Source: Alphaproteobacteria bacterium
GTDB taxonomy: Bacteria > Pseudomonadota > Alphaproteobacteria > Caulobacterales > Hyphomonadaceae
Reading direction: 5' to 3'
Length of the DNA stretch: 64,000 nt
Assembly: GCA_018827375.1 (NCBI GenBank)
Contig: JAHJYW010000006.1
Span: 1 to 64,000, forward strand
Part shown: one piece after another, positions 1-8,174 of the stretch
Numbering within the stretch: the first letter of the stretch is position 1
Layout: the number at the start of each line of letters is the position of its first letter
Program-made: the position numbers and the translations under genes
The notes under the pieces: generated by a model
Database searches by the model: none
The model's input: the letters and a program-made list of their open reading frames with translations, nothing else
What the model was told of the DNA's origin: nothing

Positions 1-890
1 AGATCCATCGATATCCGACCCACCAGCGGACAGGCTATGCCGTCAATATAGGTCATCAGGTTGTTTGCCCCGCTGCGCAACAGACCGTCGGCATAGCCAA
101 TGCCCACGGTTGCCAGCACCGCATCCTGCGCCAGCGTATATGTCGCGCCATAGCCCACCGTTTCCCCCATCTCGGCGTCAAAAACGCTGAGGATGGCCGC
201 ATCCAGCGTCAGGCCGGAACTGATGCGCAAACCTTTGGGGGGCCGCGTTCCGCCATAGAGGGCAATTCCGGGCCGGATGAGGTCATGGCCATAGGCCTTG
301 CCGAGGTAGCAGCCATCCGAATTGGCCAGGCTGGCCGGCGTGTCCGGGAAGGCGCTTGATATGACGTCGAATGCCTTCAGCTGGGCGGCGTTCATCGGAC
401 TGGCTCTGTCTTCTGCGCAGGCCAGGTGGCTCATCACCAGGACGGGCTGCAGCTTGTGCAGCGCAGGCAGGGATGTTTCCAGGAGCGAGGGCTTGAGCCC
501 CAGCCGGTTCATGCCCGTATCGAAATGCAGGGCTGATGTGCCCTTGGGCGCGCCGGACCAGGCTTTTACATGGTCGGGTGACGACAGCACGGCGGTCAGG
601 CCGGCCGTCACATAGGCGGACATTTCCTTGCGCGTCGGCCCGTTGAGCACGAAAATGCGGGGGCCGAAGCCCAGTATTTTTCGGAGCGCCAGACCCTCCT
701 CGAGATAGGCCACGAAAAAGCTGGAGCAACCGGCGCGCATCAGGGCGCGCGAAACAGGCCCGGCGCCCAGTCCGTAGGCGTCTGCCTTGACGACGGCCGA
801 GGTGGTTGCGCCGGGGTGCAGCCCGTCAAGCGCCCGCCAGTTGGCAACGATATTCGACAAATGGATCGTGGCGCGGGGCAACTGGCTCAT
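1..890 (-). CDS. alr: Alanine racemase, C-terminus cut by window edge
   Basis: Interconverts L- and D-alanine with pyridoxal phosphate, supplying D-Ala for peptidoglycan. The translation from ATG at 890 runs open to base 1. Residues 33-42 read VVKADAYGLG, the PLP-lysine motif of the family (Lys35). Further in, the stretches ALHFDTGMNRLG and VGIGYADG fit the alanine racemase barrel and the start of the C-terminal domain. The rest of the beta domain lies outside the window. The MFS transporter gene upstream ends 31 bases before this start on the same strand, so the two are probably co-transcribed. Confidence 0.93.
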   Translation of the reverse strand, partial: MSQLPRATIHLSNIVANWRALDGLHPGATTSAVVKADAYGLGAGPVSRALMRAGCSSFFVAYLEEGLALRKILGFGPRIFVLNGPTRKEMSAYVTAGLTAVLSSPDHVKAWSGAPKGTSALHFDTGMNRLGLKPSLLETSLPALHKLQPVLVMSHLACAEDRASPMNAAQLKAFDVISSAFPDTPASLANSDGCYLGKAYGHDLIRPGIALYGGTRPPKGLRISSGLTLDAAILSVFDAEMGETVGYGATYTLAQDAVLATVGIGYADGLLRSGANNLMTYIDGIACPLVGRISMD

Positions 891-921
891 TGCTGCGATG
901 TAAAACGCTTCTTGTCAGGAG

Positions 922-2373
922 TCACTTCCTGGCGGCGTACTCTTTCCAGGCCTCGCCCTTCATGTTCCAGACGGGGGTAAAGAAGACCATCCAGAGAATG
1001 ATCAGGGTCATGCCGCCCGCCGGCACAATCGCGATTTTCTGGGGGCCGAATAAATCGACCAGAGCGCCCATCAGTGCGGCGCCAAACGGCGCGCCAGCCA
1101 TGAAACCGAGCTGGTAGATGGAAAGGACGCGGGCGAGCTTTTCCTTCGGGGCGGCGTCCTGAACGATTGATCGGCTCATGGCGATCGAAATGCCTGCGGC
1201 GAGGCCCCAGATGAAGACGATGGTGAGAAATGCCCAGTGCGGAACATCCCACATCATGGCGAGGATGCTGCTGGAGCCGAGGAATTGCGCGATGAGCAGG
1301 AGCCGCCCCTGCCGCTTGATCCGGCGGAAGACCGAGAGCACCACCGATGAGACGAACGCCCCCATCCAGAAGGTCACGAACATGTCGCGGATGCCATCGG
1401 ACCCCAGATGGTAGACGTCGCGATTAATGATGGGCAGCACGACAAGGAAGGCGCCAATCACGAAGATGCCGACGCCGAACATGAGCGCTGTCATGGCCCA
1501 GAGCTTTCCGTCCGCACGCACTGCGCGGAAGCCTTCGGCGATATCTCCGAATGTTGCGCTGATGCCCGTCCGGCCGGTGCGCACTTGTCGGCCCTTGGCA
1601 AGGTTGAGGGCGAATAGCGTGCCGACAGCGAGGACGATGCCCTGAGCCAGCAACAGTTTCTCCGCGGCGATCGGCCCGACACCGAACCCGCCCATCCATT
1701 GCGGCATGCGGGTCATTTTGTCGGCATAGCCAGCCAGAACGAGGCCGGCGATCTGGGCGAGGAACTGCGCCATTGTCGCCAATGTCACACCCAGCTGGAG
1801 CGTAACGCCCGAGCCGACCCGCATCCGCCGCTCGACCACTTCGTTCACGATCGAATCGCGCGCTGGCATCATGAAGGCACCGACGGTGCCAATTGTGAGT
1901 CCATAGATGATCATGCCGGCATAGGTGAGCTGTCCGCGCGCAACGGCCACAGCCAGGAACAGGGCAGGCACGGCAGCCAGGAGATGAAGAATGATCAGCA
2001 GGCGGCGGCCATCGGCCCGCTCTGCGACGACGCCGCCGATCAGGAGGAAGATCACGGAAGGTCCCGACAATGCCATGTTTGCAAGGCCAAGCGCCAGGCC
2101 GTCCAGATGGAGGTGATCGCGGCCGGTGATCAAGTAGGGGAACAGGACCATCTGCAGGCCGAAGGCCATGAACCAGCTGCACTGGACCATCAGGTAGGCG
2201 GGCAGTTCGATCTTTACACCGCGGCGCAGGCGTTTGGCGCGCCAGTGGGTCGCCGTGGACAGAAGCGAGGCGCCAGCGCCGAGCGCTTCGCTCACGCCGC
2301 TGACGGGTGAGGTCACATCACCTGCGGCCCCTTCGGCCATGTCATCGACGAGTTCTTCGATCCTGTCGCTCAT
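922..2373 (-). CDS. MFS transporter
   Basis: A 483-residue inner-membrane protein of the major facilitator superfamily, probably an exporter. About 55 hydrophilic N-terminal residues precede roughly 12 hydrophobic segments. The loop GGVVAERADGRRLLI after the second helix resembles MFS motif A (GxxxDRxGRR). The general build is that of the MFS_3/EntS-like drug or siderophore exporters, but the substrate cannot be read from sequence. It is the upstream gene of an apparent pair with alr, which might simply reflect shared transcription. Confidence 0.85.
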   Translation of the reverse strand: MSDRIEELVDDMAEGAAGDVTSPVSGVSEALGAGASLLSTATHWRAKRLRRGVKIELPAYLMVQCSWFMAFGLQMVLFPYLITGRDHLHLDGLALGLANMALSGPSVIFLLIGGVVAERADGRRLLIILHLLAAVPALFLAVAVARGQLTYAGMIIYGLTIGTVGAFMMPARDSIVNEVVERRMRVGSGVTLQLGVTLATMAQFLAQIAGLVLAGYADKMTRMPQWMGGFGVGPIAAEKLLLAQGIVLAVGTLFALNLAKGRQVRTGRTGISATFGDIAEGFRAVRADGKLWAMTALMFGVGIFVIGAFLVVLPIINRDVYHLGSDGIRDMFVTFWMGAFVSSVVLSVFRRIKRQGRLLLIAQFLGSSSILAMMWDVPHWAFLTIVFIWGLAAGISIAMSRSIVQDAAPKEKLARVLSIYQLGFMAGAPFGAALMGALVDLFGPQKIAIVPAGGMTLIILWMVFFTPVWNMKGEAWKEYAARK

Positions 2374-2462
2374 ATCCGCTCCCGTGGACGATAGCGACTG
2401 TATGTACGGTCTATGGCGGGGAAAAGTAAATCAGCCAGCATCGTGGCTGAGCAGACGAGGGC

Positions 2463-2654
2463 TCAGCCCTTCTTCTGCTCGGCAGCCCTGATACGTTCAA
2501 TCAGGCTCTGCAGCTTCTCGGGCACGGGTTCGTTGACAGTTTCCTGATAGCGATCGCGCAGCGCGTCCCTCATTCTTTTCGACAGGGAACGGCCATCCGC
2601 AGTGAATTGCGAAAGCGGGCCTGATTTTTGGGCCTTGTCGTCTTCGTTAGTCAC
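2463..2654 (-). CDS. NepR-like anti-sigma factor
   Basis: A 63-residue protein. Its second half, YQETVNEPVPEKLQSLIERI (residues 36-55), matches the core of the NepR family, where an LxxLYDxVxxEPVPDRFxxLLxxL pattern forms the helices that hold the sigma factor EcfG and, under stress, the PhyR sigma-like domain. Length is normal for NepR. The start is GTG at 2654; the only nearby purine-rich stretch (GGGGAG) lies upstream of a tiny four-codon reading frame (ATG at 2665) whose TGA overlaps this GTG, so coupling is possible. The classical neighbours phyR and ecfG are absent; instead the next upstream gene is a sigma-like protein. The family call is by eye. Confidence 0.66.
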   Translation of the reverse strand: MTNEDDKAQKSGPLSQFTADGRSLSKRMRDALRDRYQETVNEPVPEKLQSLIERIRAAEQKKG

Positions 2655-2700
2655 GTGCGCGCCATAACTCTCTGTCTCCCCGCAGTCCTGTAGCGTTTAG

Positions 2701-2745
2701 GTTGCGATTACTCAACTCGCCTTTTGTGAGTTTAGAGTAATCAAC
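2701..2745. promoter_or_regulatory. Imperfect inverted repeat between sigma-mimic and nepR-like gene
   Basis: GATTACTC (2706-2713) is matched by GAGTAATC (2735-2742). The arms continue inward with AACTC and GAGTTT. They lie 47 bases upstream of the nepR-like start. On the minus strand a TATACT hexamer at 2774-2779 could be a -10 element, which would place the repeat inside the nepR leader or at its operator. There is no T-run that would make it a clear terminator. Confidence 0.5.
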
Positions 2746-2837
2746 GCCTACATTGTCAGAAGAGGAGTAAAAAAGTATAGAAAAAGAGTGGTTTACTGAA
2801 TTTTTTTGACTTGCCTCTCAGTATTGGAGGGCGATGA

Positions 2838-3239
2838 TCAGTTGTTTGGCGTGTACATATGCGGCGTTACCTTGAGGAAAGTTCGGAGTTCATGAAGTGT
2901 CATATGCCCTATCAATTTCACATGGTCATCCATTTTCAAATATACCGCATGTAAACTGTTCCGATTATGCGCATCCAGGAAGTCGAAGAATCGCGCTTCG
3001 AGATCGTCGGCATGTACACACGAATGCGTCGGCTCGTTCTCGTTCATCGAGTTAAGGAAGCGAATGAGCAAGTCATCGGCTGGCTGAGCGTTAGGCGCAA
3101 GAAACCTGGTGATCGACCGGAAATGAGGAACGAGGGTCTTCAGGGCCTCGGAGAGAGTCCTGAAGGACTGGTGCCGGGGAGTTCCCATATCATCACATGT
3201 GTCCGAGTGTCCGGAACCGTCTGTGTTCGTAATGGGCAT
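2838..3239 (-). CDS. Degenerate EcfG/PhyR sigma-like protein
   Basis: A 133-residue protein whose residues 29-95 resemble sigma region 2 of EcfG or of the PhyR sigma-like domain: the stretch LVPHFRSITRFL followed by PADDLLIRFL parallels the EcfG pattern IPxLRAFARSL...ADDLVQxxL, and LEARFFDFLDAHN parallels LRAWLFTILRN. Residues 96-127 (LIGHMTLHELRTFLKVTP) look like a worn-down region 4. A receiver domain is absent. I chose ATG 3239 because AGAGAGG precedes it by about ten bases and a putative promoter lies at 3367-3394; an in-frame reading could extend to 3368 but would overlap that promoter. It sits directly upstream of the nepR-like gene. GC content is visibly lower than in neighbours. The assignment is inference from by-eye alignment; a plain hypothetical protein is the alternative. 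Confidence 0.5.
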   Translation of the reverse strand: MPITNTDGSGHSDTCDDMGTPRHQSFRTLSEALKTLVPHFRSITRFLAPNAQPADDLLIRFLNSMNENEPTHSCVHADDLEARFFDFLDAHNRNSLHAVYLKMDDHVKLIGHMTLHELRTFLKVTPHMYTPNN

Positions 3240-3574
3240 GATCGGCCCTCTCTGCATGATGGCCAAGCCACCTTTTGGAGGTGTCTGTGCGATTGTGTCT
3301 GTCGCATTGGCATTATATTTCAGGGTCGCCGACTGGCTTGGTGCCTGTAATTTTCTGTTATCTAACAATACGGCTGTATCGATGGCTTTGTTCCGTCGGC
3401 GTTGAATTTATCGCGTCCAACGTGTGTTTTGCTGACGTGATTCCACCTGAGGACGTTTGCCTGAAATTCGCTTTGCGCCGCGCCCGGGCGACCGCATCAG
3501 TTGCCTTGGCGCCTGAGTGTTTGTAGCGTCCAGACTGGCGCATTGCCTCAAGCACATGCCAAGGGTGGAGTATC
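3240..3574. other. Intergenic region with divergent upstream sequences
   Basis: This 335-base stretch separates the sigma-like gene (minus) from the DoxX-like gene (plus). It contains the putative EcfG-type promoter at 3367-3394 and possible short in-frame extensions of the sigma-like gene up to 3368. Reading frames on either strand between 3270 and 3570 have no recognisable motifs and look like noise. Nothing else was seen. Confidence 0.5.
3367..3394 (-). promoter_or_regulatory. Putative EcfG-type promoter
   Basis: On the minus strand GGAAC (3394-3390) is followed by 17 bases and CGTATT (3372-3367). Alphaproteobacterial general-stress (EcfG/sigT) promoters have GGAAC-N16/17-CGTT. The -35 matches exactly and the -10 by three of four bases. 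It would start transcription near 3360, giving the sigma-like gene a leader of about 120 bases. Confidence 0.45.
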
Positions 3575-4030
3575 ATGAGATTGTTCAGGCACCTCGTCAG
3601 CTGGGCGCTCGCCCTGTTTCTGATCGCCATGTTTGTTCAGGCGACAATCCATCCGCTTCCCAACCCGCCTGCGGGTGCGGTGAAGCTCTTCGATCCGCCC
3701 GGCACCAATATTGTCTTCCAGACCCTCGCTGATCGCTCGGGCCAGACGCTTTTCGAGCCTGCGGGCCGTGTTCTGACAGGCATTTTGGAGCTTGTTGCAG
3801 CCTTGTTCCTGCTCTTCCCGTTCACCCGGCGCTTTGGCGCGATCATTTCCGCGACAATCCTTGGCGCTGCCGTGGCTTTTCACCTGTCGCCCTGGCTTGG
3901 GCGTGAGGTTCCGCTTACGCTGGATGCCGGCGAGACCGCCACGGATGGCGGCATGCTGTTCATGCTCGCGATCATCATGCTCGTCTCCAGCCTTCTGGTC
4001 CTGGTGGTCCATCCGGGACGGCGCGATTAA
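3575..4030 (+). CDS. DoxX-like small integral membrane protein
   Basis: A 151-residue protein with four hydrophobic segments at about residues 6-24, 63-84, 88-106 and 125-146. The arrangement, including the GRVLTGILELVAALFLLFPFTRRFGA stretch and the short loop between segments two and three, is that of the DoxX/DUF-type four-helix membrane proteins. Function in this branch is not established. It ends 83 bases before the DUF2336 gene on the same strand. ATG 3575 is the first plausible start, preceded by AGGGTGGAG. Confidence 0.6.
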   Translation: MRLFRHLVSWALALFLIAMFVQATIHPLPNPPAGAVKLFDPPGTNIVFQTLADRSGQTLFEPAGRVLTGILELVAALFLLFPFTRRFGAIISATILGAAVAFHLSPWLGREVPLTLDAGETATDGGMLFMLAIIMLVSSLLVLVVHPGRRD

Positions 4031-4113
4031 GTCTGAGGCAATTGATAGGCGCGCCTGTACGGCTCGTTAACCGTTTGGGTTCAGTCTGTTCGTGTTGCGA
4101 TGCAGGCAAGCCG

Positions 4114-5316
4114 ATGGACGATATGGAAGCGCAGATGAATTCGCCGCACGCAGGGCGTGCGCGGGACGCCCTGTTCAGGCGCCTGCTGGATCTTGTGGCC
4201 ATGCCGGCCTCGCGTCTTGCCCACCAGGACCGCAACATGGTGGGCGATATCCTGCTCGACATGCTGTTTCACGCAAATACCCGGGAGCGCACCATGTGCG
4301 CCAACCGCCTCGCCACCAGCCGTGAGGCGCCGCGTCGCCTGCTGCGTTATCTTGCGCAGTGTTCGTTCGAGATTGCTCAGCCGCTTCTGGAGCAGAACGA
4401 GGCATTCGATGCCTGCGACCTGAGCGAAATTGTCGAAGCCACTTCAAGCGAGCACCGGCTGGCCATCGCCCGCCGTAAGGTCGTGCCGCCGGGTGTGAGC
4501 GCCGCGCTTGCCGAGCATGGCGAGACGCACGTCGTGCGCGAACTGGTCGCCAATCCAGGCGCCACGCTGCCGGAATCAGGCATCGACAAACTGCTGACGC
4601 GCTCGCGCGATGAATCCCAGCTTTGTGCGCTACTGGTCGAACGGCTCGAATTGCGCCCGTCTCAGGCCATGGCCATGTTCTGGTGGTCGGATGGCGCCAC
4701 GCGCCGCAAGATCCTCCAGCGCCACGCGGCAGATCGCCTTGAAGTCATCGAAACCTGCAAGGATGTGTTCGAGATGATGGCGGCCGAGAAATGGGCCGAC
4801 CCCGTCGCGCGCAAGGCACTCCAGCTGATCGAGCGGCGCCAGCGGAACCGGGAAGCACTTGAGCGCAGTACTTTCGACAGTCTCGAAAGCGCCATCAATT
4901 CCGCCGGTCTTGAGGGCATGAATTCCGAACTTGCCCAGGAGATCGGTTATCTCTGCGGTATCAAGCCCGTGACGATTGCCAAAATACTATCCGATACGGG
5001 CGGGGAGGGGCTTGCAGTCCTGTGCAAGGCGACGGGCGTGAAGCGCGACTTCCTGCCTGTTCTCTGGGTGGCGCTGCGGCGACCGCTCGAAATCGACGAA
5101 GGCGAGATCCACCCGCAATTCGCACTCGTTGCTGAGACTTACGAGATTTTGACGGTCGCCAAGGCCCAGACAACCTTGCGCTACTGGAACTGGTCGCTGT
5201 CTTCGGCCTTTTCGGCGCAAGCCCTGCGCGAAGCGCAGGCATCGGGCGCTCCGGCGAACGAAGAGGCGGCGTTCTCGACATCCCAACGCACGGCCAGACT
5301 GGTTTTTGGTAGCTAG
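4114..5316 (+). CDS. DUF2336 domain protein
   Basis: A 400-residue soluble protein that is mostly helical, with repeated short helices (for example REAPRRLLRYLAQCSFEIAQ and HETHVVRELVANPGA-like stretches) typical of the alphaproteobacterial DUF2336 family, which resembles HEAT-type repeats. Members occur widely in stalked and prosthecate alphaproteobacteria; the molecular role is unknown. The start MDDMEAQMNSP at 4114 is preferred because the 24 residues added by an upstream ATG at 4042 are Cys-rich and unlike the family. It precedes the Mrp operon by 93 bases on the same strand. Confidence 0.72.
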   Translation: MDDMEAQMNSPHAGRARDALFRRLLDLVAMPASRLAHQDRNMVGDILLDMLFHANTRERTMCANRLATSREAPRRLLRYLAQCSFEIAQPLLEQNEAFDACDLSEIVEATSSEHRLAIARRKVVPPGVSAALAEHGETHVVRELVANPGATLPESGIDKLLTRSRDESQLCALLVERLELRPSQAMAMFWWSDGATRRKILQRHAADRLEVIETCKDVFEMMAAEKWADPVARKALQLIERRQRNREALERSTFDSLESAINSAGLEGMNSELAQEIGYLCGIKPVTIAKILSDTGGEGLAVLCKATGVKRDFLPVLWVALRRPLEIDEGEIHPQFALVAETYEILTVAKAQTTLRYWNWSLSSAFSAQALREAQASGAPANEEAAFSTSQRTARLVFGS

Positions 5317-5409
5317 TCTGCGAAAAAGCAGGAAAGAGGCTTCCCAACGGGCCTCCGGCCATTTAGGCCAAGCACTGGTGGATTGGGTTGATACGGGAGC
5401 TGAGACGCT

Positions 5410-5898
5410 GTGGCGTACTTTCTAGGGCTTTTGTTTGCGCTGGTTGCGTTCTGGATCGGCATGTCCGGCCATTTCGAACCACTCCTGCTCGGCCTTGGTG
5501 CCGTGTCGCTGGGCCTCACAATGATCCTTGCCTACCGGCTGGACATCCTTGACCGCGAAGGCGTGCCCTATGTGCGTCTTGTCGGCTTTGCGATGTATTT
5601 TCCGTGGCTGATGAAGGAAATCATCAAGGCAAACTGGACCGTTATCCGGGCCTGCCTGCGCGCCGAACTCGACATTGCGCCGACGCTGGTGAAGCTGAAG
5701 ACGACCTGCACATCGGATCTCGCAAAGGTGACGTTCGCCAATTCGATCACGCTCACGCCGGGCACTGTCACGATCGAGATCGATGGCGACAAGCTGCTCG
5801 TGCACGGCCTTTACGAACAGGATTCCCAGCCGGAAGCCTTCATTGAGATGGACCGGCGTTCGGCCCGTGCCATTGACGGCAAGGGAGCCGCCGCATGA
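5410..5898 (+). CDS. mrpE: Mrp antiporter subunit E
   Basis: A 162-residue MnhE/MrpE subunit of a multisubunit cation/proton antiporter in the inner membrane. Two or three N-terminal hydrophobic segments are followed by the cytoplasmic domain with the family stretch FANSITLTPGT, and then EIDGDKLLVHGL. It is the first gene of a ten-gene operon and starts with GTG at 5410, about 12 bases after GGGAG. Its stop overlaps the mrpF start by four bases (ATGA). In most bacterial mrp operons E is fifth; here it is first, as mbhA is in archaeal Mbh clusters. Confidence 0.9.
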   Translation: MAYFLGLLFALVAFWIGMSGHFEPLLLGLGAVSLGLTMILAYRLDILDREGVPYVRLVGFAMYFPWLMKEIIKANWTVIRACLRAELDIAPTLVKLKTTCTSDLAKVTFANSITLTPGTVTIEIDGDKLLVHGLYEQDSQPEAFIEMDRRSARAIDGKGAAA

Positions 5899-6191
5899 CC
5901 GCCACCGCCCTCATTGCAATCCTGCTCGGCATGGTCCTGCTGCTCATTCGCACCCTGATCGGACCCACGCTGTATGACCGTGTGCTTGCGGTAAACTCGC
6001 TGGGCACGAAGACAGTTCTTGCGCTCGGCCTGCTCGGCTTTGTCATGGGGCGGCCCGAGTTTCTCGACATCGCGATTCTCTACGCCATGATCAACTTCGT
6101 CTCGACGATCGCGATCCTCAAATTCTTCCGCTACCGCTCTTTCCAGGTGCCGCTGGTTCGCCGCGGCGGCGCTCAGGGAGGCAAACGCTGA
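5895..6191 (+). CDS. mrpF: Mrp antiporter subunit F
   Basis: A 98-residue protein with three membrane helices. The stretch RTLIGPTLYDRVLAVNSLGTK is the MrpF signature region (GPxxxDRxxAxNxxGT), and the last helix carries FLDIAILYAMINF. It forms part of the small-subunit core of the antiporter with MrpE and MrpG. It overlaps mrpE by four bases and touches mrpG with TGATG, indicating translational coupling. Length is normal for the family. Confidence 0.92.
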   Translation: MTATALIAILLGMVLLLIRTLIGPTLYDRVLAVNSLGTKTVLALGLLGFVMGRPEFLDIAILYAMINFVSTIAILKFFRYRSFQVPLVRRGGAQGGKR

Positions 6192-6565
6192 TGTCTGACC
6201 TTCTCACCAACCTGTATCATTTCTTCGAGATCGTTCGCTATCCAGCCGGATCGGCGCTGTGTCTGGCCGGCGCCATACTCTGCGTTATCGGCACGATCGG
6301 CGTAATGCGGTTTCCAGACTTCTACACGCGCATGCATGCCGCCAGTATTACGGACACATCCGGCGCAACGGTCATCCTGATTGGCATGGCGCTCATGGCG
6401 CCAAGCTGGATCATTGTTGCCAAGCTGGGTACCATTTTCTGGCTGCTGTTCCTGACCAGCCCTGCGGCGTCACATGCTGTCGTCAACGCGGCCCATACGG
6501 CGGGCCTGCAGCCGCTGATCGGACGGCTGGGCAAAAAGCCTGATGACGAGGAGGGCGCAGCATGA
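6191..6565 (+). CDS. mrpG: Mrp antiporter subunit G
   Basis: A 124-residue protein with three membrane helices. The stretch GVMRFPDFYTRMHAASITDT is the MrpG hallmark (GxxRxPDxYxRxHAAxxxDT). The C-terminal tail is short and acidic. It starts within the mrpF stop and its own stop overlaps the next gene by ATGA. The role of G in ion transport is structural as far as known. Confidence 0.93.
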   Translation: MSDLLTNLYHFFEIVRYPAGSALCLAGAILCVIGTIGVMRFPDFYTRMHAASITDTSGATVILIGMALMAPSWIIVAKLGTIFWLLFLTSPAASHAVVNAAHTAGLQPLIGRLGKKPDDEEGAA

Positions 6566-7206
6566 CCGGCGTTCTTGAAGGCGATATCGGCATCGCGCTC
6601 GTCAATATCCTGCTTCTGACTGTCCTGTTCGTGGTGGCGATCGCGATTGCGCGCCTGCGCAACCTGTTCGCCATCGTCATGCTGTCGGGCATCTACTCGC
6701 TCGTATCGGCAACATGGTACGTCGTGGTCGATGCGGTGGACGTGGCCTTCACCGAAGCCGCCGTCGGCGCCGGCATGTCCACGGTCGTGCTGCTGGGAGC
6801 GATGCTGCTGACCTCGCGCACAGCCAAGCCGGACAAGAAATTTGCTCGCCTTGGACCGCTTCTCGTCGTTATCGCGACAGGCGTGATGCTGATCTATGCG
6901 TCGGTTGACCTGCCAGCGCTTGGCGACCCGAATTCGCCCGTGAACCAGGGCGTCGGCCTCACCTATATGCAGATCAACTGGGCCGATACGGGCATCCCGA
7001 ACGTCGTCACATCTGTCCTCGGCAGCTATCGTGGCTTCGATACACTTGGCGAGACGACGGTGGTCTTCCTGGCCGGTCTCGCCGTCGCGCTCCTGCTCGG
7101 TTTCGGCGAGCGGTCGCTGGCAGAATCAATTCGCCGCGAAGGCAATCTGCCAGACCGCAATGCTGCGTCAGGTGCTGAAGCCGGCAAAGAGGAGGACGCC
7201 TCGTGA
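6562..7206 (+). CDS. MbhD/MbhE-like subunit (MrpA C-terminal equivalent)
   Basis: A 214-residue membrane protein matching the C-terminal part of MrpA as a separate protein. Residues 10-85 form three helices with IARLRNLFAIVMLSGIYSL and FTEAAVGAGMSTVVLL, the DUF4040/MbhD signature with its conserved acidic residue. The second half has single helices and DTLGETTVVFLAGLAVALLL, the MbhE-type ending. In Bacillus MrpA these domains are fused behind a NuoL-like antiporter; here no such N-terminal domain precedes them. Overlaps both neighbours by four bases (ATGA, GTGA). Confidence 0.85.
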   Translation: MTGVLEGDIGIALVNILLLTVLFVVAIAIARLRNLFAIVMLSGIYSLVSATWYVVVDAVDVAFTEAAVGAGMSTVVLLGAMLLTSRTAKPDKKFARLGPLLVVIATGVMLIYASVDLPALGDPNSPVNQGVGLTYMQINWADTGIPNVVTSVLGSYRGFDTLGETTVVFLAGLAVALLLGFGERSLAESIRREGNLPDRNAASGAEAGKEEDAS

Positions 7207-7655
7207 ACAGCGATCATCACGTCATTCTTCGCGTTGTTTCAAAGATGCTTCTGCCGATCATCGTGATGTTTGCGTTCTACACGCAGTTCCACGGTGATTT
7301 CGGCCCGGGCGGCGGCTTTCAGGCAGGCATCATCATTGCCGTCGGAGTCATCCTCTATGCGCTGATTGCGGGCGTTCCGGCCGCCATGCGCGCCGTGCCT
7401 CCGGCCTTCACCCGTTCGCTCGCGGCCATCGGGGTGATGGTCTATGCGGGTGTCGGCTACTGGGCCATGTTGAAGGGCGGAAACTATCTTGAATACCAGG
7501 CGCTCTTCAACGAGCCGCCGGGCGAGCATCACGGCCAGCATATCGGTATCATGGTCATCGAGCTTGGCGTCCTTTTCGGCGTCTCCGGTGCCATGCTGAC
7601 AATCTTCTATGCGTTCGCTGGCCGCGTTGCCGAAATCCGCGACAAAGACTGGTAA
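7203..7655 (+). CDS. mrpB: Mrp antiporter subunit B
   Basis: A 150-residue MnhB-domain protein with four helices. The GDFGPGGGFQAGIIIAVGVIL stretch near residues 33-52 is the MrpB signature, followed later by IMVIELGVLFGVSGAMLTIFYAF. It uses GTG at 7203, which overlaps the preceding stop. Only three bases separate it from mrpC. In the archaeal Mbh order this corresponds to mbhF. Confidence 0.92.
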   Translation: MNSDHHVILRVVSKMLLPIIVMFAFYTQFHGDFGPGGGFQAGIIIAVGVILYALIAGVPAAMRAVPPAFTRSLAAIGVMVYAGVGYWAMLKGGNYLEYQALFNEPPGEHHGQHIGIMVIELGVLFGVSGAMLTIFYAFAGRVAEIRDKDW

Positions 7656-7658
7656 GCC

Positions 7659-8174
7659 ATGCTGGAATTCATTCTCGAACGGGCAAACTACTGGGCCATC
7701 ATCGGACTGATGATGATCGGCCTCTACATCACGTTTGCCAGCGGAAACCTGATCAAGCGCCTTGTCGGCCTCTCTCTGTTCCAGACTTCGGTCTGCCTGT
7801 TCTACGTGACCCTCGGCAAGGTCGCGGGCGGTACCGCGCCGATCCTCTATGGCGAAGATGCTGTGGAACATGGCGGCGGCCACGGCGCGGATGCGGCCCA
7901 TCACGCGACAGGCGTCACTGGCGGGCATGCCCTTGGCAATGCCAGTGCGCCGGTCGAACTTGTTCACACCTATTCCAACGTGCTTCCCCACGTGCTGATG
8001 CTGACGGCGATTGTCGTTGGCGTGGCGACGCTGTCGGTGGGCCTCGCCCTGATCGTTCGTATCCGAGAGGCCTATGGTTCTATCGAGAGCGACGAAGTCC
8101 GCGAGATCGACCTTGAGATGGCCCTCGCGCAGGAAGCCGAGATTGACCAATGGCTCAACGAGGCGGGCGCATGA
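7659..8174 (+). CDS. mrpC: Mrp antiporter subunit C with His-rich loop
   Basis: A 171-residue NuoK-like subunit. Helix one (YWAIIGLMMIGLYITF) and helix two (LVGLSLFQTSVCLFYVTLG) carry the usual MrpC pattern, and helix three is HVLMLTAIVVGVATLSVGLAL. Between helices two and three is an insertion of about 40 residues with seven or eight histidines (HGGGHGADAAHH, GGHALG, VHTYSNVLPH). The C-terminal tail is long and acidic. Most MrpC proteins are about 110-125 residues, so both loop and tail are extended. Stop overlaps mrpD by ATGA. Confidence 0.88.
   Translation: MLEFILERANYWAIIGLMMIGLYITFASGNLIKRLVGLSLFQTSVCLFYVTLGKVAGGTAPILYGEDAVEHGGGHGADAAHHATGVTGGHALGNASAPVELVHTYSNVLPHVLMLTAIVVGVATLSVGLALIVRIREAYGSIESDEVREIDLEMALAQEAEIDQWLNEAGA

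Follow-up and report, generated by a model that had tools for sequence, protein, structure and literature searches.

In the canonical general stress response of Alphaproteobacteria, as outlined in the accessible portions of reviews, NepR is titrated by PhyR under the gating of histidine kinases. Excerpts of one study (PMC4814048) describe a stand-alone EcfG-group paralogue of Methylobacterium extorquens, Mext_0132, that comprises sigma region 2 only and matches EcfG1 by BLAST with 134 bits (E 6e-39), and report more than one NepR per genome, i.e., the M. extorquens NepR paralogues, one of which has a putative sigma-EcfG promoter, and RsiA1/RsiA2 of S. meliloti. Here we analyze a 64,000-nucleotide (nt) stretch of contig JAHJYW010000006.1 (hereafter, the window) from the 3.63-Mb genome of a marine Hyphomonas (G000; below, C-numbers denote contigs and L-numbers fetched loci), in which a NepR paralogue is encoded next to a free-standing sigma-2-like protein (hereafter, the mimic). 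This gene pair is real, conserved and confined to one lineage, a variant of the partner switch that governs the general stress response, and it may act through the mechanism set out below. The two genes are open reading frames (ORFs) with products of 133 and 63 amino acids (aa).

2838 to 3239, minus strand: free-standing sigma-2-like mimic, ORF of 133 aa, ATG start at 3239 with GAGAGG upstream
2463 to 2654, minus strand: NepR paralogue, ORF of 63 aa, GTG start, PF18557 match at the cut-off

Both ORFs lie where the first-pass annotation of this DNA had placed them. The mimic gene precedes nepR on the minus strand, with a gap of 183 nt. If translation began at an alternative ATG at 3260, the mimic would be 7 residues longer; its conserved core is encoded at 2841-3161.

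The mimic may resemble PhyR in combining helices of the sigma-2 kind with loss of the EcfG region-2.2 motif, and it has a weak fold match to PhyR-NepR structures and a gene near nepR; unlike PhyR, it has neither a receiver/phosphorylation domain nor a sigma-4-like half, and its core of ~107 residues is accompanied by a C-terminal beta-hairpin and helix. As far as the excerpts go, it shares with Mext_0132 the state of a stand-alone sigma-2-only protein, whereas it has no domain match on its own and carries the added beta-hairpin module; no NepR pairing is mentioned there for Mext_0132. The NepR paralogues of M. extorquens and S. meliloti likewise show multiple NepRs per genome, but those excerpts describe no neighboring sigma-mimic gene. 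The EcfG-NepR gene pair differs from the window in its sigma-like partner, as that of the window lacks sigma-4 and the region-2.2 motif, and its usual order is nepR then ecfG. The reverse order, as in the window, was seen in genome G027 (contig C121, L177 969-2044(+)), where a NepR gene lies 225 nt downstream of a full EcfG gene and encodes a product 46% identical to the window NepR, possibly an ancestor-type arrangement. No free-standing mimic encoded with NepR was found in the open-access literature, a coverage that leaves out most subscription papers, and the passage on Hyphomonas in the accessible sigma-factor literature concerns a different group, ECF43.

The assignment of the 63-aa protein as a NepR paralogue is supported by profile searches. 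Against Pfam PF18557 (NepR) it scored 25.6-25.7 bits, on the threshold of 25.7, and its orthologues in H. oceanitis SCH89 (G002), H. chukchiensis BH-BN04-4 (G005) and H. johnsonii MHS-2 (G012) scored 30.1, 29.8 and 30.9 bits, respectively. The alignment of these four proteins matched 54 other NepRs from the fetched loci, its own orthologues excluded, with an hhalign probability of 97.9, and 0 of 200 column shuffles reached that score; the NepR identity first proposed from a short core motif is supported. The protein is a paralogue rather than an equivalog, since it reached 16.4 bits against the NCBIfam equivalog NF051865 (sigma-T NepR; cut-off 100) and since the same genome holds a canonical phyR-nepR-ecfG locus on contig C23, where phyR is divergent from nepR-ecfG and a histidine-kinase gene lies alongside (kinase label read from sequence). 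A second, divergent ecfG2-phyR2 pair lies on contig C34 (L162 3518-5159) of the window's genome, with no nepR between or beside its genes, and no nepR was found between these genes in G005 and G012 either. The ecfG2 and phyR2 genes of G002 are at the ends of different contigs with the intervening DNA not visible, so the count of nepR-less loci is three of the four pair-bearing genomes. This feature is not exclusive to them, as nepR-less ecfG2-phyR2 loci also occur in G013 and G017, both without the window pair. Two to three PF18557 matches per genome are common among Hyphomonas.

Profile comparisons show that the N-terminal helices of the mimic are homologous to the sigma-2 region of EcfG and probably, at the level of the wider family described below, to that of PhyR. 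Alone, the 133-aa protein had no Pfam or NCBIfam match and matched EcfG weakly (E 0.023). The four window-type orthologues matched the sigma-2 region of 36 EcfG over the first two helices (hhalign probability 79; 0/200 shuffles); their match to PhyR was not significant (41/200 shuffles reached the score). For 13 family members the probability was 95 over 33 columns against the 36 EcfG and 52 against 33 PhyR sigma-like domains, each with 0/200 shuffles. This null was made after removal of columns gapped in more than half of the rows. A smaller one of 40 column shuffles of the four-member set, with gap columns retained, reached the EcfG score once and the PhyR score nine times; some of its scores exceeded 130, which we took, without proof, as an artefact of shuffled gap columns. 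When the 13-member profile was run against PDB sequences (E up to 10), three rows were returned, i.e., RT-PhyR (E 0.0012, at the start of sigma-2) and two conotoxin-like peptides (E 0.71 and 0.85). One member of sub-family 3 matched Pfam PF22029 (PhyR_sigma2) at E 0.0073, below the cut-off of that model. Among 4497 distinct ORFs drawn from the fetched loci, a set enriched for EcfG, PhyR and mimic genes, a 16-member profile detected (E ≤ 1) 73 ORFs with an EcfG or PhyR label. The remaining 20 that it detected comprised the 16 family members, two PhyR sigma-like proteins lacking a receiver, a ferredoxin fusion and a further sigma-2-like orphan.

Two AlphaFold2 models of the mimic both have three helices followed by a beta-hairpin and a short helix, and a sigma-4-like domain was seen in neither, so the region-4-like tail initially suggested for this protein has to be given up. 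A receiver domain is likewise absent, the ORF ending at 133 aa with zero Pfam matches, and the earlier statement that the protein has neither a receiver nor full DNA-binding parts stands. In Foldseek searches the best row for the first model was the PhyR-NepR structure 4qic (E 0.24, probability 0.90); for the second, proteasome chains ranked highest and PhyR appeared at ranks 43 and 49, and neither model gave a row with E below 0.001. The VIA rows for the first model had PhyR intermixed with signal recognition particle GTPases at the same Z (6.1, 6.0, 6.0). The region-2.2-type motif D-x-x-Q-[DES] was present in 36/36 EcfG, 0/33 PhyR and 1/16 mimic family members, under a stricter expression for EcfG than for the other two groups. 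The region-2.2 motif is tied to RNA polymerase binding.

Whole-genome profile searches located the pair at a window-type locus in 4 of 42 Hyphomonas genomes. The mimic orthologues of G002, G005 and G012, each intact and adjoining an orthologous NepR, are 47, 44 and 26% identical to the window mimic over the core (25-50% among all four). A search with the orthologue profile returned 16 aligned members from 13 of the 42 Hyphomonas genomes, in four sub-families (neighbor labels by eye):

Sub-family 1, window type: 4 members, followed by NepR
Sub-family 2, C45 type, near a cytidine-deaminase-like ORF: 4 members (G000 contig C45, G002, G005, G015), followed by a NepR-like ORF
Sub-family 3, near an ornithine-carbamoyltransferase-like ORF: 6 members
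Sub-family 4: two singletons

In 385 genomes of the class searched at E 1e-6, only the window's genome matched, with up to 11 candidates scored per genome, so that distant members may escape. When 105 genomes of the taxonomic family were searched at E 1e-5, one other genus gave matches, in four of its genomes. These matches were confined to the first 50 positions, the frames being 195-198 aa long, and the four loci hold ORFs matched by the EcfG profile. The mimic family is unannotated and, among the genomes searched, full length only in Hyphomonas. When named genome contigs were searched for the 133-aa protein by short exact patterns, no relative was returned, although these contigs contain the pair-bearing H. 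oceanitis and H. chukchiensis loci, because such patterns fail on a mimic this divergent.

The arrangement recurs at the second locus, where each of the four sub-family-2 mimic genes has an ORF of 61-64 aa lying 56-71 nt downstream (that of G000 on C45 with its start chosen by alignment with the orthologues, the longest ORF being 74 aa). None of these small proteins matched Pfam NepR, and singly one of the four passed E 1e-3 against NepR profiles in the ORF set; that of G005 reached E 9.8e-5 within its own locus. As a set, they matched the window-type NepR with a probability of 94.9 (0/100 shuffles) and the 54 other NepRs with a probability of 62 (0/200 shuffles). A NepR-like gene therefore follows 8 of the 16 mimic family members, which belong to two sub-families whose loci are unlinked, and both pairs are present in G000, G002 and G005. 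No NepR was seen near the other eight, as judged by eye downstream and with a NepR profile that has little power for divergent NepRs.

Both genes of the pair are under purifying selection. The ratios of nonsynonymous to synonymous change (dN/dS; NG86, six genome pairs per gene) are rough, as several dS values exceed 2 or are undefined; they were 0.19-0.37 for the window-type mimic, 0.08-0.45 for its nepR and 0.09-0.21 for the second-locus mimic (each with defined dS in 4/6 genome pairs), and 0.15-0.39 for the second nepR (6/6). Being intact in three other Hyphomonas genomes with purifying-type codon changes, the pair is more than a chance association. A chance ORF or pseudogene was considered and is disfavored by the pattern of codon change, with many dS values above 2 or undefined. 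The first-pass description of the protein as a sigma mimic of PhyR or a worn-out EcfG holds for its sigma-2 kinship; that it is merely worn out is not supported, because selection maintains the gene.

Two conserved elements precede the genes of the pair:

3369 to 3394, minus strand: sigma-EcfG-type promoter predicted for the mimic gene, with GGAAC(AAA) at 3394-3390, a 17-nt spacer and CGTA at 3372-3369
2651 to 2715, minus strand: conserved nepR leader, GTTGAGT (TTGAGT at 2715-2710) and a mini-ORF at 2665-2651

Upstream of the mimic, GGAACAAA is invariant in 4/4 genomes, the next longest invariant run in 300 upstream columns being 3 (permutation P below 1e-4, approximate since the test treats alignment columns as exchangeable). 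A -10 element follows 16-17 nt past it, reading CGTA in the window and AGTT, GGTT and CGTT in the others. The window -10 is one base off, and chance alone would give ~0.34 sites with up to one mismatch in 330 nt. These elements come close to the promoter of the canonical nepR in the same genome, GGAAC-N17-CGTT, and to the consensus given in the accessible text of PMC7083833, GGAAC-N16-CGTT. Allowing up to one mismatch in 330 nt of upstream sequence, no sigma-EcfG motif was found for the four second-locus mimics or for three ecfG2 genes, and one of three phyR2 upstream regions (G000) had a one-mismatch site. In the nepR leader, the 7-base runs GTTGAGT and ATGGCGC are invariant in 4/4 genomes (P ~0.009 by column permutation). 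ATGGCGC opens a four-codon ORF, ATG-GCG-x-x-TGA (M-A-x-x-stop), that overlaps the nepR GTG start in all four and may set NepR translation by re-initiation. TTGAGT could be the -35 element, with TACAGG 17 nt on, of a housekeeping promoter of nepR, while a strict sigma-70 scan of the leader called no promoter; if this promoter is real, NepR synthesis would be constant, and that of the mimic would follow EcfG activation.

Given these patterns, our preferred reading, which we hold tentatively at a probability of roughly 45%, is that the mimic is a sigma-2-only decoy, produced during an active stress response, that binds the neighboring NepR, the two genes forming a partner-switch module within the general stress response of Alphaproteobacteria. 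The mimic would have retained the sigma-2 helices of EcfG and PhyR and lost the region-2.2 motif, sigma-4 and the receiver, with the beta-hairpin and helix following the sigma-2 helices. Release of EcfG would lead to mimic synthesis, and the mimic would bind NepR, its neighbor first and perhaps the main NepR too. How much NepR is available to EcfG1, or to the ecfG2-phyR2 locus that lacks a nepR, would then be fixed by the amount of mimic made and not by phosphorylation, and the net effect would most likely be positive feedback or buffering of the module's own NepR. Of the two-piece switch regulated by synthesis that the first-pass annotation had envisaged, the recurrent mimic-NepR gene order is supported, and the conserved sigma-EcfG-type motif is consistent with control by synthesis; the binding, its direction of effect and the expression of the pair stay at the level of what the module would do.

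The NepR paralogue itself may instead be the active part, binding PhyR or EcfG2 as an anti-anti-anti-sigma factor or as the missing anti-sigma factor of ecfG2-phyR2, with the mimic merely buffering or stabilizing it, which would give negative feedback. In the excerpts of PMC4814048, two M. extorquens NepR paralogues bind PhyR without detected binding to any EcfG, and the separate conserved leader of nepR and the lack of nepR at ecfG2-phyR2 in three of the pair-bearing genomes also fit; the same lack in G013 and G017, which have no pair, argues against this explanation, and we regard it as unlikely. Somewhat more doubtful is a sigma-2-like protein no longer concerned with NepR, whose scaffold and new beta-hairpin bind another target and whose nepR adjacency was inherited from an ecfG-nepR operon. 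The eight family members with no NepR neighbor seen, the replacement of sigma-4 in both models and the G027 genes with the same order all agree with such a history, but the mimic has a NepR next to it at two unlinked loci, where the partners have diverged. That the mimic is a dominant-negative sigma fragment competing with EcfG for RNA polymerase through sigma-2 would suit a kinship confined to the N-terminal sigma-2 helices, yet the motif carried by every EcfG is kept by a single family member, making this very improbable. Least credible is a chance ORF or decaying ecfG remnant, as the short and divergent sequence with no domain match alone might suggest, given the third-position-biased change, the low dN/dS where defined, the intact genes in four genomes and the paralogous pair elsewhere.

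The locus is flanked by a divergent 151-aa ORF upstream and an MFS-like transporter ORF downstream (labels by eye), and other features of the window are as follows:

2431 to 2450, minus strand: terminator-like hairpin directly past the nepR stop, from a consensus scan only (5 such sites in 2400-3600 versus a mean of 1.4 in shuffles)
5410 to 7206, plus strand: overlapping small membrane-protein ORFs, presumably Mrp-type cation antiporter subunits judging by eye

An Rfam scan of window positions 1-8000 gave zero matches at the gathering threshold.

Other receiver-free sigma-like proteins were seen in Hyphomonas. A 185-aa receiver-less PhyR-like protein (L168 3093-3650(+), also L197-L202) matches NF006623 at E 3e-9 over model positions 12-133 of 258, and its gene in L168 is convergent to an ecfG gene. 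Matches to it are listed for 14/42 Hyphomonas genomes. Six reach E 1e-48 or better and lie in frames of 182-191 aa (one of the six, G016, with a TGA inside the match), and two of the weaker ones lie in frames longer than 300 aa. In one of the 42 genomes (G035 contig C20, L178 2085-2672(+)), a sigma-2-like N-terminus is in frame with a 2Fe-2S ferredoxin (Fer2 E 1.9e-10; family profile E 7.5e-8). A 127-aa orphan (G018 contig C18, L179 1992-2375(-)) has weak similarity to the sigma-2 family and a different C-terminus.

It is conceivable, at clearly less than even odds, that Hyphomonas has repeatedly freed the sigma mimic from the phosphorylation control of PhyR, as NepR-paired sigma-2-only mimics at two loci, receiver-less whole PhyR sigma-like proteins and a sigma-2/ferredoxin fusion, and that these together feed into the general stress response independently of phosphorylation (through transcription and perhaps redox). 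The mimic would raise the question of whether sigma-2 alone suffices to hold NepR. If the proposed mechanism is true, a separate mimic with its own NepR and an apparently EcfG-type promoter would add a synthesis-set layer to the general stress response, and it could help to explain the persistence of NepR paralogues and their binding partners.
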